A DNA stretch of 64,000 nucleotides, from contig NZ_QKTV01000001.1 in the NCBI RefSeq assembly GCF_003362725.1, positions 434,001-498,000 on the forward strand. The letters run 5' to 3'. Position numbers and translations under genes: made by a program. Below are positions 27,283 through 33,934 of the stretch, piece after piece. Each line of letters starts with the position of its first letter. Within the stretch, counting starts at the first letter, position 1. The DNA is from Winogradskyella aurantiaca (GTDB lineage: Bacteria; Bacteroidota; Bacteroidia; Flavobacteriales; Flavobacteriaceae). Below the pieces are notes generated by a model, which was given only the letters and a program-made list of their open reading frames with translations, did no database searches and was not told the origin of the DNA.

Positions 27283-28245
27283 TTGTCTAAAACGGCGAAG
27301 ACCATCTTGAAAATTGGATTACCACTAACCCTGGGATTAGTATTGGTATGGTATTCGCTTAATAAGATATCTGTTCAAGAACTCTATAATTATGCCAAAG
27401 GAGCTAATTATTGGTACATCGCCTTGGGTGTAACATTCGGTATATTAAGTCACGCTTCAAGAGCCTACAGATGGTTATACATGGCCCAGCCATTAGGATT
27501 TAAACCAAAATTTGCCAACAGCTTCATGGCAGTATACGCGGCCTATTTAATTAATATGACAGTTCCACGTGCCGGAGAAATTGCCAGAGCCAGTATTCTT
27601 GCAAACTATGAAGATGTACCATTTGAAAAAGGGTTTGGCACTATTGTTTCAGAACGGGTTGCAGATACCTTAATGTTATTGTTGGTCATTGGGTTAGCAA
27701 TGGTTTATCAATATGATTTTTTGATGGATTTCTTTAATTCCAAGTTTCAAACATCCACACTTGTAACACTTTTAGTTCTAGGATTAGCGTTTGGAAGCCT
27801 TGTAATTCTGTTTGTGTTAAAGTCCAAAGGCAGTATAGCGACGAAGATTCGCAATTTTTTAACAGGACTCCTCGAAGGGGTTTTGAGCATATTTAAGATG
27901 AAAAATAAATGGTACTTCATTGCTCATACCATTTTTATCTGGGTGATGTATGTGTTAATGTTTTATGTAACAACACTATCACTTTCAGAGTTTAGTGCTA
28001 TTCCCTTTGGGGCAGTATTGGTGGGATTCATCTTAGCAAGTTTTAGTATTGCGGCGACGAATGGGGGGATTGGTTCTTTTCCTGAGGCTGTTGTTATTGC
28101 ATTCACTTTATTTAATTTACCAGAAGATCCAAGTCGAGCATTTGGATGGATTATGTGGTCTGCTCAGACTTTAGCCATTATAATTCTTGGGGGGTTATCA
28201 TTGATTTATTTACCTATCTATAACCGTAAGTTAAAAGAGGTATAG
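27283..28245 (+). CDS. lysylphosphatidylglycerol synthase TM-region / UPF0104 family membrane protein (TTG start)
   Basis: A 320-residue polytopic inner-membrane protein with about eight hydrophobic helices. Family landmarks are LSHASRAYRWLYMAQPLG, PRAGEIARASIL and GGIGSFPEAVVIAFTLF. It matches the flippase-like membrane half of MprF but lacks the catalytic aminoacyl-transfer domain. The start is TTG at 27283, 4 bases after panD stops, implying coupling; no ATG in the first 60 codons fits better. The function is not known, with lipid handling inferred. Confidence 0.85.
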   Translation: MSKTAKTILKIGLPLTLGLVLVWYSLNKISVQELYNYAKGANYWYIALGVTFGILSHASRAYRWLYMAQPLGFKPKFANSFMAVYAAYLINMTVPRAGEIARASILANYEDVPFEKGFGTIVSERVADTLMLLLVIGLAMVYQYDFLMDFFNSKFQTSTLVTLLVLGLAFGSLVILFVLKSKGSIATKIRNFLTGLLEGVLSIFKMKNKWYFIAHTIFIWVMYVLMFYVTTLSLSEFSAIPFGAVLVGFILASFSIAATNGGIGSFPEAVVIAFTLFNLPEDPSRAFGWIMWSAQTLAIIILGGLSLIYLPIYNRKLKEV

Positions 28246-28285: not shown

Positions 28286-29434
28286 ATGAAAACCTTCATT
28301 GCAGTAGTTTGCGCCCTACTTCTATTTAATCAGTCCTATTCCCAGGCACTTTACGAAACTTTCGACTCTGGTAAGCTAGAAGATTCCAGACAGCTCAAAA
28401 TTCAAGTTCCAAGAAATTACAATCCAGAAGATAAAAGAGAGTATCCTTTGGTTTTGGTTCTGGATGGAGACTATTTATTTGAACCAGTAGCAGGAAATGT
28501 TGACTATCAGGCCTATTGGGAAGATATCCCAGATTGCATAGTAGTTGGCATATCTCAAGCTTCTTCGAGAAGCCAAGATTTTTTCTATGATAATGAAACC
28601 TTCTTCCCTGCTCATGAAGGGGCTGATTTCTTCGAGTTTATAACCATGGAATTAATACCATATTTAGAGGGTAGTTACAATATATCCGATTTTAGAATCA
28701 TCATTGGACATGACTTAAGTGCCAATTATATAAACTACTATCTTTTTAAAAACCCACCCTTATTTCGTGCCTTCGTATTAATAAGTCCAGATTTTGCACC
28801 AGAAATGGAGAGTCGGCTGCTTCAAAGATTGTCTGGGTTACAGCAAGAGACATTCTATTATATGTCATCTGCAGAGAACGATGTTAAAAGATTAAAAACA
28901 ACTATTGAGGAGTTCCAACCAAAAATTGATACCATTAGTAACTCAAAGTTTCATTACAAATATGATTTTTTTGAGGAAGCTAATCACTATTCGCTCGTAG
29001 GAAGAAGTATTCCAAAAGCGCTCAATCAGATATTTGAACTCTACAAACCAATCAGTTCTGCAGAATACAATGACAAAATTTTACCCTATGAAGGAACACC
29101 ATATGAATACTTAGAGAAAAAGTATGAAGATATCGAGTACTTCTATGGATTTGAAAAACAACTGATAGAGAATGATGTTAGGGCCATTGCCTCAGCGTGC
29201 ATTAAAAAAGATGATTTAGAATCTTTGGAAAAATTGGCAAAGCTGGTTAAAAAAGAATTTCCTGAATCTATGCTAAGCGCCTACTACTCCGGTATGGTAC
29301 AAGAAAAATATGGCAATCTCAAGCGTGCATTGCAGCGTTATCAGTCAGGTCTTTTGTTGGCGCCATCCCAATTTATAGACAAGGAAGTTTTGTTGGAAAA
29401 AATGTATGAGATACAAGATGAATTAAAGAGATAA
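28286..29434 (+). CDS. exported alpha/beta-hydrolase-fold protein, nucleophile replaced by Asp (paralogue 1)
   Basis: 382 residues with a signal peptide (MKTFIAVVCALLLFNQSYSQ). It matches the putative esterase family (esterase D/IroE type): VLVLDGDYLFEPV, the elbow IIGHDLSANY and a late His in EANHYSLV. In active esterases the elbow is GHSxG; here Asp143 stands where Ser should be. The final 90 residues look like one helical TPR-type unit (YYSGMVQEKYGNLKRALQRY). It is followed by a full-length paralogue. Likely periplasmic. It may be a non-hydrolytic binding protein or an enzyme with an Asp nucleophile; both are inference. Confidence 0.8.
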   Translation: MKTFIAVVCALLLFNQSYSQALYETFDSGKLEDSRQLKIQVPRNYNPEDKREYPLVLVLDGDYLFEPVAGNVDYQAYWEDIPDCIVVGISQASSRSQDFFYDNETFFPAHEGADFFEFITMELIPYLEGSYNISDFRIIIGHDLSANYINYYLFKNPPLFRAFVLISPDFAPEMESRLLQRLSGLQQETFYYMSSAENDVKRLKTTIEEFQPKIDTISNSKFHYKYDFFEEANHYSLVGRSIPKALNQIFELYKPISSAEYNDKILPYEGTPYEYLEKKYEDIEYFYGFEKQLIENDVRAIASACIKKDDLESLEKLAKLVKKEFPESMLSAYYSGMVQEKYGNLKRALQRYQSGLLLAPSQFIDKEVLLEKMYEIQDELKR

Positions 29435-29477
29435 ATGCATTTCGTCGAAAAAATGTACACTTAACCGATATTTATTC

Positions 29478-29485
29478 TATATTTG
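29478..29485 (+). promoter_or_regulatory. -7 box before hydrolase paralogue 2
   Basis: TATATTTG, an exact TAnnTTTG match, 25 bases before the ATG at 29511. It suggests the second paralogue can be transcribed on its own. No TTG at the right distance was found. Confidence 0.45.
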
Positions 29486-29510
29486 ACTTCCAAATCAAAC
29501 CGACTGTTCG

Positions 29511-30695
29511 ATGAAAAGGACAATTTCATCCTTATGCCTACTTTTTACCATTAGTGCTTTAATAGCACAGGTGAGTTATAAAGAAATAACTTCGGTAAAG
29601 CTTAATACCCATAGAAAGCTTAAAATTAAACTGCCAAAAGACTACGATCCATCTTCGGAGTTAAAACACCCTGTTATTGTGGTTTTCGATGGTGACTATT
29701 TATTTGAACCTGTAATTGGGCAGGTAGATTTTCAAACGTATTTTGATGATATGCCTGGATCAATTGTTGTTGGTGTCGTTCAAGGTAAGGAACGTTTTTA
29801 TGATGGCTATGTTGATGATGTTTCTGGTTTGCCAACAGAATCGGGATTAAGATTTCATGATTTTGTAAAAAAAGAACTCCTCCCTTATCTGGACGCAAAT
29901 TATAAGACAAGTAAATTTAGAGTCGCTGTTGGTCATGATTTAATGGGAAATTATATCAATTCCTTTTTATTCCAAGAAGAGCAAGCTTTTCAGGCTTATG
30001 TTGTTATTAGTCCAGATTACAAAGGGGCAATAGAAAGTCAATTACCAGAACGCCTTGGCTACCTTCAAAATCAAATTTTCTATTATTTGGCTACTTCAGA
30101 TAAAGATGTACGGTATATACGGAATTCGGTTGAAAATACAGATGAGGCATTATCATCTCTGGAGAATCAAAATTTAACTTATTACTTCGATAATTTTAAA
30201 GGCGAAACCCATTATACCTTAGTCACAAGTGCCATATCTAGGGCATTTGACAAGATATTTGATATTTATAAACCATTGAGGGAAAAAGAAATTGAAGAAA
30301 AGGTTCTCCCTTACGATGGGACGCTCGATAAGTACATAACGGATAGGTACAGACGAATAGAGGACTTATTTGGTATTGAAAAACCAATTACAGAAGAAGA
30401 ATTAGAAAAAGTAGTTAAGGTAGCAGAACAAAGAGAGGACCTAGAGTCGCTATACAAGCTAGGTAAACTAACACAAAAGCTATATCCTGATTCCCCACAA
30501 GGAACCTATTACTTGGCCATGCACGCGGATCGGGTAGGTAAAAAGAAGAAAGCGGCTAAACTATATGAAGCGGCACTTGCTATGGGGGATTCTCCTGTCA
30601 TTGATAAAGAATTTATTATGGCAATGGTTGAGGAAACTAATCTTGCAACCGAAGATTTAGAAACAGAAGAGGAGGACGAAGATGAAGAGAACTAG
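29511..30695 (+). CDS. exported alpha/beta-hydrolase-fold protein, nucleophile replaced by Asp (paralogue 2)
   Basis: 394 residues, similar throughout to the preceding gene. It has a signal peptide (MKRTISSLCLLFTISALIAQ), VVFDGDYLFEPVIGQVDFQ, the elbow VAVGHDLMGNY with Asp again at residue 143, and His in GETHYTLV. The C-terminal helical TPR-like part (YYLAMHADRVGKKKKAAKLY) is kept, and the protein ends in a strongly acidic tail (EEEDEDEEN) missing in paralogue 1. The tail codes over the start of a small ORF in another frame (30682). The tandem duplication has kept the Ser-to-Asp change in both copies. Confidence 0.8.
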   Translation: MKRTISSLCLLFTISALIAQVSYKEITSVKLNTHRKLKIKLPKDYDPSSELKHPVIVVFDGDYLFEPVIGQVDFQTYFDDMPGSIVVGVVQGKERFYDGYVDDVSGLPTESGLRFHDFVKKELLPYLDANYKTSKFRVAVGHDLMGNYINSFLFQEEQAFQAYVVISPDYKGAIESQLPERLGYLQNQIFYYLATSDKDVRYIRNSVENTDEALSSLENQNLTYYFDNFKGETHYTLVTSAISRAFDKIFDIYKPLREKEIEEKVLPYDGTLDKYITDRYRRIEDLFGIEKPITEEELEKVVKVAEQREDLESLYKLGKLTQKLYPDSPQGTYYLAMHADRVGKKKKAAKLYEAALAMGDSPVIDKEFIMAMVEETNLATEDLETEEEDEDEEN

Positions 30696-30884: not shown

Positions 30885-32246
30885 ATGGCTAAAGTCAAAA
30901 CTGCCTTCTATTGTCAAAACTGTGGTGCTCAGTATGCCAAATGGCAAGGGCAATGTAATTCTTGTAAACAATGGAATACCATCGCTGAAGAGGTTATTCA
31001 GAAACCTCAAAAGAATGATTGGAAGTCCAATTCGTCAACAACTTCTCAACGCACTTCAAAGCCACTACGTATCAATGAGATCGATGTGACTCAGGAGGCG
31101 CGATTAAACATGCAGGATACTGAGTTTAATCGTGTTTTAGGTGGTGGAATGGTTCCTGGATCACTAACACTTTTAGGTGGGGAACCTGGTATAGGAAAAA
31201 GCACCTTGCTACTTCAAATAGCATTACAACTTCCCTATAAAACACTGTATGTTTCTGGGGAAGAAAGTCAGAAACAGATAAAAATGCGTGCAGAACGTGT
31301 GGATCCAAATTCTGAGAACTGCTTTATCCTCACAGAAACTAAAACTCAAAATATCTTTAAGCAAGTTGAAGATCTAGAGCCAGATATAGTTGTTATTGAC
31401 TCAATTCAAACGCTTCATAGCGATTATATAGAATCATCAGCCGGAAGTATTTCACAGATTAAAGAATGTACAACTGAGTTGATCAAATTCGCAAAAGAAA
31501 CTGCAACTCCAGTTTTGTTGATTGGTCATATAACCAAAGATGGTCATATCGCAGGGCCAAAAATATTGGAGCATATGGTCGATACTGTGTTACAGTTTGA
31601 GGGGGACAGGAACCATGTATTTAGAATTTTAAGGGCGCATAAAAACCGTTTCGGGTCTACCAATGAATTAGGTATTTATGAGATGCTAGGATCCGGACTC
31701 AGACAGGTTAGCAATCCCTCAGAAATTTTAATCTCAGAAAAAGACGGAGAATTATCAGGAAATGCCATATCCGCTACACTGGAAGGCATGCGACCCTTAA
31801 TGATTGAAGTTCAGGCCCTCGTAAGTACAGCTGTTTATGGCACTCCTCAACGATCGGCTACCGGGTTTAATGCAAAGCGCCTTAATATGCTATTAGCAGT
31901 TTTAGAAAAACGTGCTGGCTTTAGATTGGGGGCAAAAGATGTATTCTTAAATATTACAGGTGGTATAAGTGTTGATGATCCTGCAATTGATTTGGCTGTT
32001 GTCGCGGCTATTTTATCTTCCAATGAAGACGTGCCCATTTCTAGTGATTTTTGTTTTGCGGCTGAGGTGGGTTTGTCGGGTGAAGTACGTCCAGTACAAC
32101 GAGTTGATCAACGTATTCAGGAGGCCGAAAAACTTGGTTTTTCAACTATTTTCGTTTCTAAATACAATAAGATCTCTTTGAAAAATAGTTCGATAAAGGT
32201 GCAGTTAATTACGAAGGTTGAAGATCTAACTAGTTTTTTGATTTAG
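30885..32246 (+). CDS. radA: DNA repair protein RadA
   Basis: A RecA-like branch-migration ATPase/helicase acting on recombination intermediates. 453 residues. Domains in order: C4 zinc finger (Cys10, 13, 24, 27; FYCQNCGAQYAKWQGQC), ATPase with Walker A GEPGIGKST, the RadA-specific KNRFGST motif, and a C-terminal Lon-protease-like domain (GGISVDDPAIDLAVVAAI). It stands alone on the plus strand. Confidence 0.97.
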   Translation: MAKVKTAFYCQNCGAQYAKWQGQCNSCKQWNTIAEEVIQKPQKNDWKSNSSTTSQRTSKPLRINEIDVTQEARLNMQDTEFNRVLGGGMVPGSLTLLGGEPGIGKSTLLLQIALQLPYKTLYVSGEESQKQIKMRAERVDPNSENCFILTETKTQNIFKQVEDLEPDIVVIDSIQTLHSDYIESSAGSISQIKECTTELIKFAKETATPVLLIGHITKDGHIAGPKILEHMVDTVLQFEGDRNHVFRILRAHKNRFGSTNELGIYEMLGSGLRQVSNPSEILISEKDGELSGNAISATLEGMRPLMIEVQALVSTAVYGTPQRSATGFNAKRLNMLLAVLEKRAGFRLGAKDVFLNITGGISVDDPAIDLAVVAAILSSNEDVPISSDFCFAAEVGLSGEVRPVQRVDQRIQEAEKLGFSTIFVSKYNKISLKNSSIKVQLITKVEDLTSFLI

Positions 32247-32314: not shown

Positions 32315-33934
32315 ATGAAGTATTTCTATTCCTTAGCATGTTTATTATTGTTGGCTTGTAACAACAGTGATGATAAGGTAAATAGTGCTACCAATGTACC
32401 TCCTAATATTGTCTTTATTATCACAGATGACCATGCGTATCAGGCTTTAAGTGCATATGAGGATCATTTGATCCAAACGCCTAATATAGATCGCATAGCA
32501 AAAGAGGGGATGCTATTTGAAAAAGCTTATGTCTCAAATTCTATATGCTCCCCCAGTAGGGCTGTGGCGCTTACTGGTAAATTGAGTCATTTGAATAGTG
32601 TACGCGATAATTTGGATGTATTTGATACGACAATGGTTACCTTTCCAAAATTGCTTCAAACAGGTGGCTATGAAACGGCCATTTATGGGAAGTGGCATTT
32701 AAAATCAGAACCTAAGGGGTTTGATTTTTGGGAGGTGCTTCCTGACCAGGGGCATTATTACGATCCAGAATTCCTGACTGAAAATGGTGAGATAAAGGAG
32801 GATGGCTATGTTACGGATGTTATTACTGATAAGGCCATAGAGTATCTTAAAAATAAACGGGATAAGTCCAAACCTTTCATGCTTATGTACAATCACAAGG
32901 CACCACATAGGCAATGGTGGCCAAGTATGGAAGATTTAAGAGCTTTCAAAGACCAAAAGATTCCAGTGCCTGAATCCTTTTTTGATGATTATAAGACCAA
33001 GAGCCCGGCTTCCAAGGAGGCCGAAATGCGGATTGCCGATCATATGGCCCTGAGTGCCGATAATAAGATTCATCCGGATATTCTTGAAAAACTTAATTAC
33101 AACGAGTTCTTAGATTGGTATGAAGGAGCCTACTTAGAGCGTTTAAGTCGTCTGTCTGAGGAGGAGCAAAAAGCCTGGCAAGAAGTCTATGGTCCAATTA
33201 ATGAAGAATTTGAATCCAATGCCCCCAAGGGACAAGCTCTGGCCCTTTGGAAATACCAGCGTTATATGGAAGATTACCTGGGTGTTATTTCAAGTGTGGA
33301 TAGAAATATTGGTCGCGTTTTGGACGAGTTGGACAATTCAGGCTTAACTGAAAACACCATGGTTATTTACACCTCCGATCAAGGCTTTTATTTAGGGGAG
33401 CACGGCTGGTTTGATAAACGGTTTATGTATGAAGAATCGTTTAGGACTCCGTTGTTAGTGAGATATCCTAAGCTTATAAAACCTGGGAGTTCAGATAAGC
33501 ATCTTGTTCAGAACATTGATTTTGCTCCTACTGTTTTAGAGGTAGCCGGTGTGCCCATTCCAGAAGATATGCAAGGTCGCAGTCTGGTACCCTTATTAAA
33601 TTCTGATACTGTGGAATGGCGTGACGCTCTGTATTATCATTACTACGAATACCCTGGTATTCATATGGTTAAACGTCATTATGGGGTGCGGACAGAGCGC
33701 TACAAACTCATACGCTTTTACTATAATGTAGAAGCCTGGGAATTGTATGATTTACAAACCGATCCTCAGGAATTGAATAATGTCTACGATACTCCTGAAT
33801 ATGCTGAGGTTCAGACCCAAATGCATGATAAACTGGAAGAAATTCGTATTCAATACAAGGATGCTTCAGATAGCCTTAATCAAGATTGGATAGATAAAGA
33901 TATTGAAAGGCTAAAGAGCCTAGGCTGGGACTGA
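32315..33934 (+). CDS. sulfatase lipoprotein (formylglycine type)
   Basis: 539 residues. The N-terminus is a lipoprotein signal (LLLLAC, Cys15). The sulfatase domain begins at about residue 28 (PPNIVFIITDDHAYQA). The formylglycine-forming motif is CSPSR with Cys78 as the modified residue, followed by TGK. YTSDQGFYLGEHGWFDKR carries the metal-binding DQG and the conserved His/Lys. The C-terminal subdomain (WELYDLQTDPQELNNVY) is typical of polysaccharide or glycosaminoglycan sulfatases. Its anchoring suggests action on sulfated glycans outside the inner membrane. It is not in a polysaccharide utilisation cluster here, and the substrate is unknown. Confidence 0.92.
   Translation: MKYFYSLACLLLLACNNSDDKVNSATNVPPNIVFIITDDHAYQALSAYEDHLIQTPNIDRIAKEGMLFEKAYVSNSICSPSRAVALTGKLSHLNSVRDNLDVFDTTMVTFPKLLQTGGYETAIYGKWHLKSEPKGFDFWEVLPDQGHYYDPEFLTENGEIKEDGYVTDVITDKAIEYLKNKRDKSKPFMLMYNHKAPHRQWWPSMEDLRAFKDQKIPVPESFFDDYKTKSPASKEAEMRIADHMALSADNKIHPDILEKLNYNEFLDWYEGAYLERLSRLSEEEQKAWQEVYGPINEEFESNAPKGQALALWKYQRYMEDYLGVISSVDRNIGRVLDELDNSGLTENTMVIYTSDQGFYLGEHGWFDKRFMYEESFRTPLLVRYPKLIKPGSSDKHLVQNIDFAPTVLEVAGVPIPEDMQGRSLVPLLNSDTVEWRDALYYHYYEYPGIHMVKRHYGVRTERYKLIRFYYNVEAWELYDLQTDPQELNNVYDTPEYAEVQTQMHDKLEEIRIQYKDASDSLNQDWIDKDIERLKSLGWD

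Follow-up and report, generated by a model that had tools for sequence, protein, structure and literature searches.

A Flavobacteriaceae family of esterase-like proteins that lacks the catalytic serine

Two adjacent genes of Winogradskyella aurantiaca, here called H1 and H2, encode esterase-like proteins with an aspartate at the position of the catalytic serine, which raises the question of whether they are enzymes with an Asp nucleophile or proteins that no longer catalyze. Both lie in a 64,000-nt stretch of contig NZ_QKTV01000001.1 (positions 434,001 to 498,000, forward strand), referred to as the window (Table 1). A preliminary description had proposed either binding proteins or Asp-nucleophile enzymes. 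We now favor binding and disfavor the Asp nucleophile, since Asp, Gly, Asn, Glu, Arg, Lys, Ala, Ser, and Thr all occur at this position among orthologues or close relatives. In our assessment, H1 and H2 probably belong to an ancient Flavobacteriaceae family: exported pseudo-esterases that lost the serine early, use no covalent nucleophile, and most likely have a binding role.

Table 1. Features of the tandem locus, in window coordinates
Feature	Position	Strand	Description
LPG_synthase_TM gene	27283..28245	+	PF03706, YbhN-like membrane protein; conserved upstream neighbor
H1	28286..29434	+	382 aa; secreted-type esterase fold, GHD elbow (Asp143), His234, Asp199, helical TPR-like C terminus
H1 elbow codons	28706..28726	+	G141-H-D143-L-S-A-N147 (Ser esterases: GHSxGG); computed from ORF start 28286
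H2	29511..30695	+	394 aa; H1 paralogue, GHD elbow (Asp143), His234, helical C terminus, acidic tail EEEDEDEEN
H2 elbow codons	29931..29951	+	G141-H-D143-L-M-G-N147; computed from ORF start 29511
radA	30885..32246	+	Conserved downstream neighbor

The tandem proteins and their elbow

Both window proteins match the Pfam Esterase profile PF00756 (42.5 and 46.1 bits versus a cut-off of 22), as do all 25 family members checked, and they are 37 to 38% identical to each other. The catalytic elbow Ser (GxSxG) of active PF00756 esterases is missing from both. Each ORF encodes Asp143 at the elbow and retains the late His (His234), as described previously; Asp199 is also present in both, and by alignment it would be the triad acid. 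The N termini are hydrophobic and resemble signal peptides (MKTFIAVVCALLLFNQSYSQA; MKRTISSLCLLFTISALIAQ), which suggests that both proteins are exported.

In AlphaFold models of H1 and H2 (mean pLDDT of 93.7 and 89.7), residue 143 is the sole residue between a strand (133 to 142) and a helix (144 to 154). This arrangement identifies it as the nucleophile elbow, a position that is therefore taken by no other Ser in either protein, and the predicted structures thus agree with the earlier placement of Asp143. We also considered Ser167, which lies in an SPD motif and is 91% conserved, as a replacement nucleophile. It was rejected because it follows strand 162 to 166 rather than occupying the elbow and because it is common to about half of the Ser-bearing outgroup.

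The C-terminal part of each protein is helical and weakly TPR-like (TPR_2 was matched at an E value of ≤0.01 in 6 of 25 members), which fits the TPR-like unit first described there. The acidic tail noted in the second protein only proved to be a feature of most H2 orthologues: the net acidic excess over the last 20 residues is at least 9 in 29 of 44 of them, whereas it never exceeds 5 in the 45 H1 orthologues, which have no strongly acidic tail. Upstream of H2, TATATTTG at positions 29478 to 29485, 25 bases before the start, fits the Bacteroidota -7 element TANNTTTG. Shuffled sequences contain this pattern at least as often as the window does, which means that the fit may be due to chance, and a scan for sigma-70-type promoters found nothing above shuffles.

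Residue 143 and the former active site across the family

The expectation of Ser at the elbow in esterases of this family held for nearly all outgroup esterases tested. They come from genomes of the same order and class; of the outgroup rows listed, L192 (GWEAAAY) is alone in lacking Ser at this column. Two weaker paralogues from the W. aurantiaca genome also carry Ser there (GHSNGAEY and GASLGG). The GHSNGAEY paralogue (L128:892-2598, near G000:C10:880958) has a CBM_20-like N-terminal domain and a long C-terminal extension, and its gene adjoins a LuxR-type regulator gene.

Among 151 aligned family sequences, a sample weighted to the tandem clade (89 of 151), residue 143 is Asp in 113, Gly in 23, Asn in 8, Glu in 3, and Arg, Lys, Ala, and Ser in one each. 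Outside the tandem clade, the 62 sequences comprise 33 with Asp, 23 with Gly, and 3 with Glu, along with Arg, Asn, and Ala; further, more divergent relatives (L188, L189, and L184) have Thr, Gly, or Arg. The column ranks 119th of 360 in conservation. It is biased toward Asp, with states clustered on the tree (none of 500 shuffles was as low), and Ser is almost never regained: the sole member with Ser143 is the H2 copy of locus L114, which is shortened and lacks His234. As far as the aligned sequences go, the missing Ser is thus a trait of the Flavobacteriaceae family and not a peculiarity of the H1/H2 pair. The spread of residues among homologues, which the preliminary description had named as refuting evidence, goes largely against its reading, and the 151 sequences rule out an Asp nucleophile conserved family-wide. 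Gly-type orthologues occupy the same gene order as Asp-type ones, which makes a conserved covalent Asp mechanism unlikely. Within the H1 clade, residue 143 is limited to Asp or Asn, a restriction that counts against the pseudo-esterase interpretation.

In a tree built from 108 rows after removal of the elbow columns, 11 Ser esterases split from 97 family rows (SH-aLRT of 97). Residue 143 shows 17 state changes in all, with the starred branches forcing at least 8 for Asp and at least 5 for Gly, an exact number that is uncertain because this was a quick tree without bootstrap and with several long-branched outgroup rows. The simplest reading is that Ser was lost once, ahead of the family's radiation, and that Asp, Gly, Asn, and Glu later replaced one another. 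The argument that retention of Asp after duplication speaks against a random loss was therefore misframed, as Ser appears to have gone before the family diversified, long before the duplication. Asp143 was also not strictly retained afterward, being Asn in 2 of 45 H1 sequences and Asn, Lys, or Ser in 7 of 44 H2 sequences.

The remaining triad positions bear on whether any catalysis persists. His234 is kept in 138 and Asp199 in 131 of the 151 sequences, and all 96 sequences with a GHD elbow keep both. Together with an elbow that is predicted to be intact, this is what would be expected if H1, H2, and the other Asp-type members were enzymes with an Asp143-His234-Asp199 triad like that of haloalkane dehalogenases and epoxide hydrolases, the Gly-type members being a derived inactive branch. 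However, Gly-elbow orthologues keep the same His (20 of 23) and the same Asp (21 of 23), indicating that the dyad does not track Asp143, and natural Asn replacements occur in both the H1 and H2 clades. In addition, members of a Flavobacterium-like group with the elbow GYDITANF have lost Asp199 and, in part, His234. Taken together, the repeated Asp/Gly exchanges and the loss of triad residues in this group and in the solved relative 4W9R argue against a conserved Asp nucleophile, and we regard an Asp-triad enzyme as quite unlikely. A third configuration of the former active site is seen at the GYDITANF loci (L083 to L086, L090, L094, L096 to L099, and L101 to L106), where the elbow His is Tyr (or Phe), Asp143 persists, and Lys mostly stands in for Asp199.

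Because His234 and Asp199 persist with Asp, Gly, Asn, Glu, or Ala at position 143, we also weighed catalysis without a covalent nucleophile, in which this pair would activate water or act as acid/base and residue 143 would merely shape the pocket. Such a mechanism may apply to the members keeping both residues, and their retention in most sequences is more than binding obviously needs, which speaks against a pure binding role. Yet the Flavobacterium-like clade and 4W9R have lost His, Asp, or both and still keep the gene; overall, we consider this reading unlikely. It is distinctly improbable that Asp-His-Asp or nucleophile-free His-Asp enzymes arose within the CE1-like family independently of the known Asp-nucleophile hydrolases, with differing activities in Gly and Asp members.

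Other positions are more strongly conserved. Two near-invariant neighbors of residue 143 are N150 (150 of 151 sequences) and N147 (144 of 151), and D60, D98, and Y191 are also conserved. Four residues, Y63, Q91, N147, and N150, combine conservation within the family with absence from all 11 Ser outgroup rows; judging from secondary structure, they would lie in the oxyanion-loop region, following a central strand, and on the helix located behind the elbow. Where dS was computable, dN/dS was 0.03 to 0.14 for H1 and 0.02 to 0.07 for H2, values comparable with those of radA, and purifying selection on the orthologues is strong. The low dN/dS and the family-specific invariants suggest a maintained noncatalytic role, as in the inactive peptidases DPP6 and DPP10.

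Distribution, gene order, and duplication

H1 had a match in 169 of 199 Flavobacteriaceae genomes (E value of ≤1e-5), some of the weakest of which may be Ser esterases. The genomes without a match, among those listed, are small (1.3 to 2.3 Mb), suggesting that the pseudo-esterase is lost on genome reduction. In the loci read, the gene order is nearly always panC-panD-LPG_synthase_TM-[pseudo-esterase]-radA, with DUF4270 and starch-synthase-like genes divergent. In 90 of the 91 loci holding both genes, no more than 300 bases separate the pseudo-esterase from the LPG_synthase_TM gene, and the two share a strand. A functional link between the two was considered and rejected: 193 of 199 genomes have the LPG_synthase_TM gene, among them most of those that lack the pseudo-esterase, and in one genome (G126) the pseudo-esterase is present while the LPG_synthase_TM gene is missing, so there is no obligate pairing. 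The neighboring genes are mostly housekeeping genes and point to no function. Between radA and an isoleucyl-tRNA-synthetase-like gene, the window also holds a sulfatase gene (SGSH-type; positions 32315 to 33934), which had no match in the other loci read. A Ser-bearing ancestor at the same locus was sought in 148 genomes of the order and 247 of the class; the full-length Ser-bearing relatives that were fetched lie outside the panC-panD-radA block.

Most sampled genera have one copy of the gene, two copies occur in a Winogradskyella/Gelidibacter/Bizionia group, and three genomes (G016, G097, and G144) have three. In the tree, H1 and H2 fall into distinct groups, each with support, so the duplication is older than the divergence of the genera in which it occurs. 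The Gly-type third copies of the three-copy genomes group with the widespread single-copy Gly orthologues. At these loci (L112, L114, and L116), the interval from the LPG_synthase_TM gene to radA holds an Asp-type H1, an H2-like copy, and a Gly-type copy, whose order varies. The H2-like copies are shortened (~280 aa) and have a broken motif, an observation in line with the idea that H1 and H2 are decaying, functionless remnants in the W. aurantiaca genome. Both window copies are full length, however, the orthologue dN/dS ranges from 0.02 to 0.14, and most genomes of the family retain the gene; we consider decay highly improbable.

According to the pseudo-esterase interpretation, a PF00756 alpha/beta-hydrolase domain (IroE/BES/CE1-like) was joined to a helical TPR-like C-terminal domain, and the catalytic Ser would have been lost ahead of family diversification. 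Neither Ser nor Asp would act as a covalent nucleophile. Binding of a ligand or of another protein in the periplasm, probably by a dimer, is the most likely role of the rebuilt pocket, the helical domain, or both. In the Winogradskyella/Gelidibacter/Bizionia group, H1 and H2 arose by duplication of this gene and have drifted apart, with an acidic tail in most H2 proteins.

Automatic annotation, guided by the match to an esterase profile, would tend to name members esterases despite the missing nucleophile, and the family is useful as a warning of such misannotation. It is conserved, probably periplasmic, found at a fixed place in most sampled Flavobacteriaceae genomes, and has a solved relative. 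The repeated Asp/Gly/Asn exchanges at a dead nucleophile also offer a natural experiment on the features that a pseudo-active site has to retain. We found no description of this Flavobacteriaceae-wide syntenic Ser-less group in the open-licence literature searched, and it may have been described elsewhere.

Comparison with known systems

The IroE-like/BES/CE1 Ser esterases of PF00756 (3GFF, 2QM0, IroE, Fes, and feruloyl esterases) have the same alpha/beta-hydrolase fold and share D60, R95, E122, G141, and the late His with the family. They differ in having GxSxG with a catalytic Ser, where the pseudo-esterases have Asp, Gly, Asn, or Glu together with their own invariants N147, N150, Y63, and Q91. 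MPT51 is a noncatalytic PF00756 protein. Haloalkane dehalogenases and epoxide hydrolases use a catalytic Asp at the nucleophile elbow along with a His and an acid. The elbow Asp that these enzymes require is not conserved among the pseudo-esterase orthologues, which replace it with Gly, Asn, Glu, and other residues. The 50 structural neighbors listed belong to the Ser esterase group; the absence of Asp-nucleophile enzymes from this list excludes nothing by itself.

The closest solved structure is 4W9R (Coch_1243 of Capnocytophaga ochracea), with a Z score of 40.1, an rmsd of 2.9 over 357 residues, and 31% identity; both domains align end to end. Sequence E values to Coch_1243 are 9e-50 and 2e-38 for the window proteins, and the profile E value is 2e-88. 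Like H1 and H2, it has the two-domain architecture and no elbow Ser; it differs from them in its elbow (ASEEAG) and in having Asn in place of His234. The structure was CASP11 target T0852 and CAPRI target T94, handled as a homodimer (PMC5030136), and the dimeric state suggested above for the family derives from this assessment. In the open-licence literature searched, we found only this docking paper and no described function for Coch_1243.

Pseudoenzymes on the alpha/beta-hydrolase fold are an already known kind. DPP6 and DPP10, inactive S9B peptidases with noncatalytic roles, have Asp and Gly, respectively, at the Ser site, and restoring the Ser does not regain activity (PMC4350108). DPP10 keeps its His and Asp (PMC4350108). 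Both belong to a eukaryotic peptidase family with a beta-propeller, and the likeness to H1 and H2, the replacement of Ser by Asp or Gly in an alpha/beta-hydrolase pseudoenzyme, is one of analogy only and not of shared family membership.
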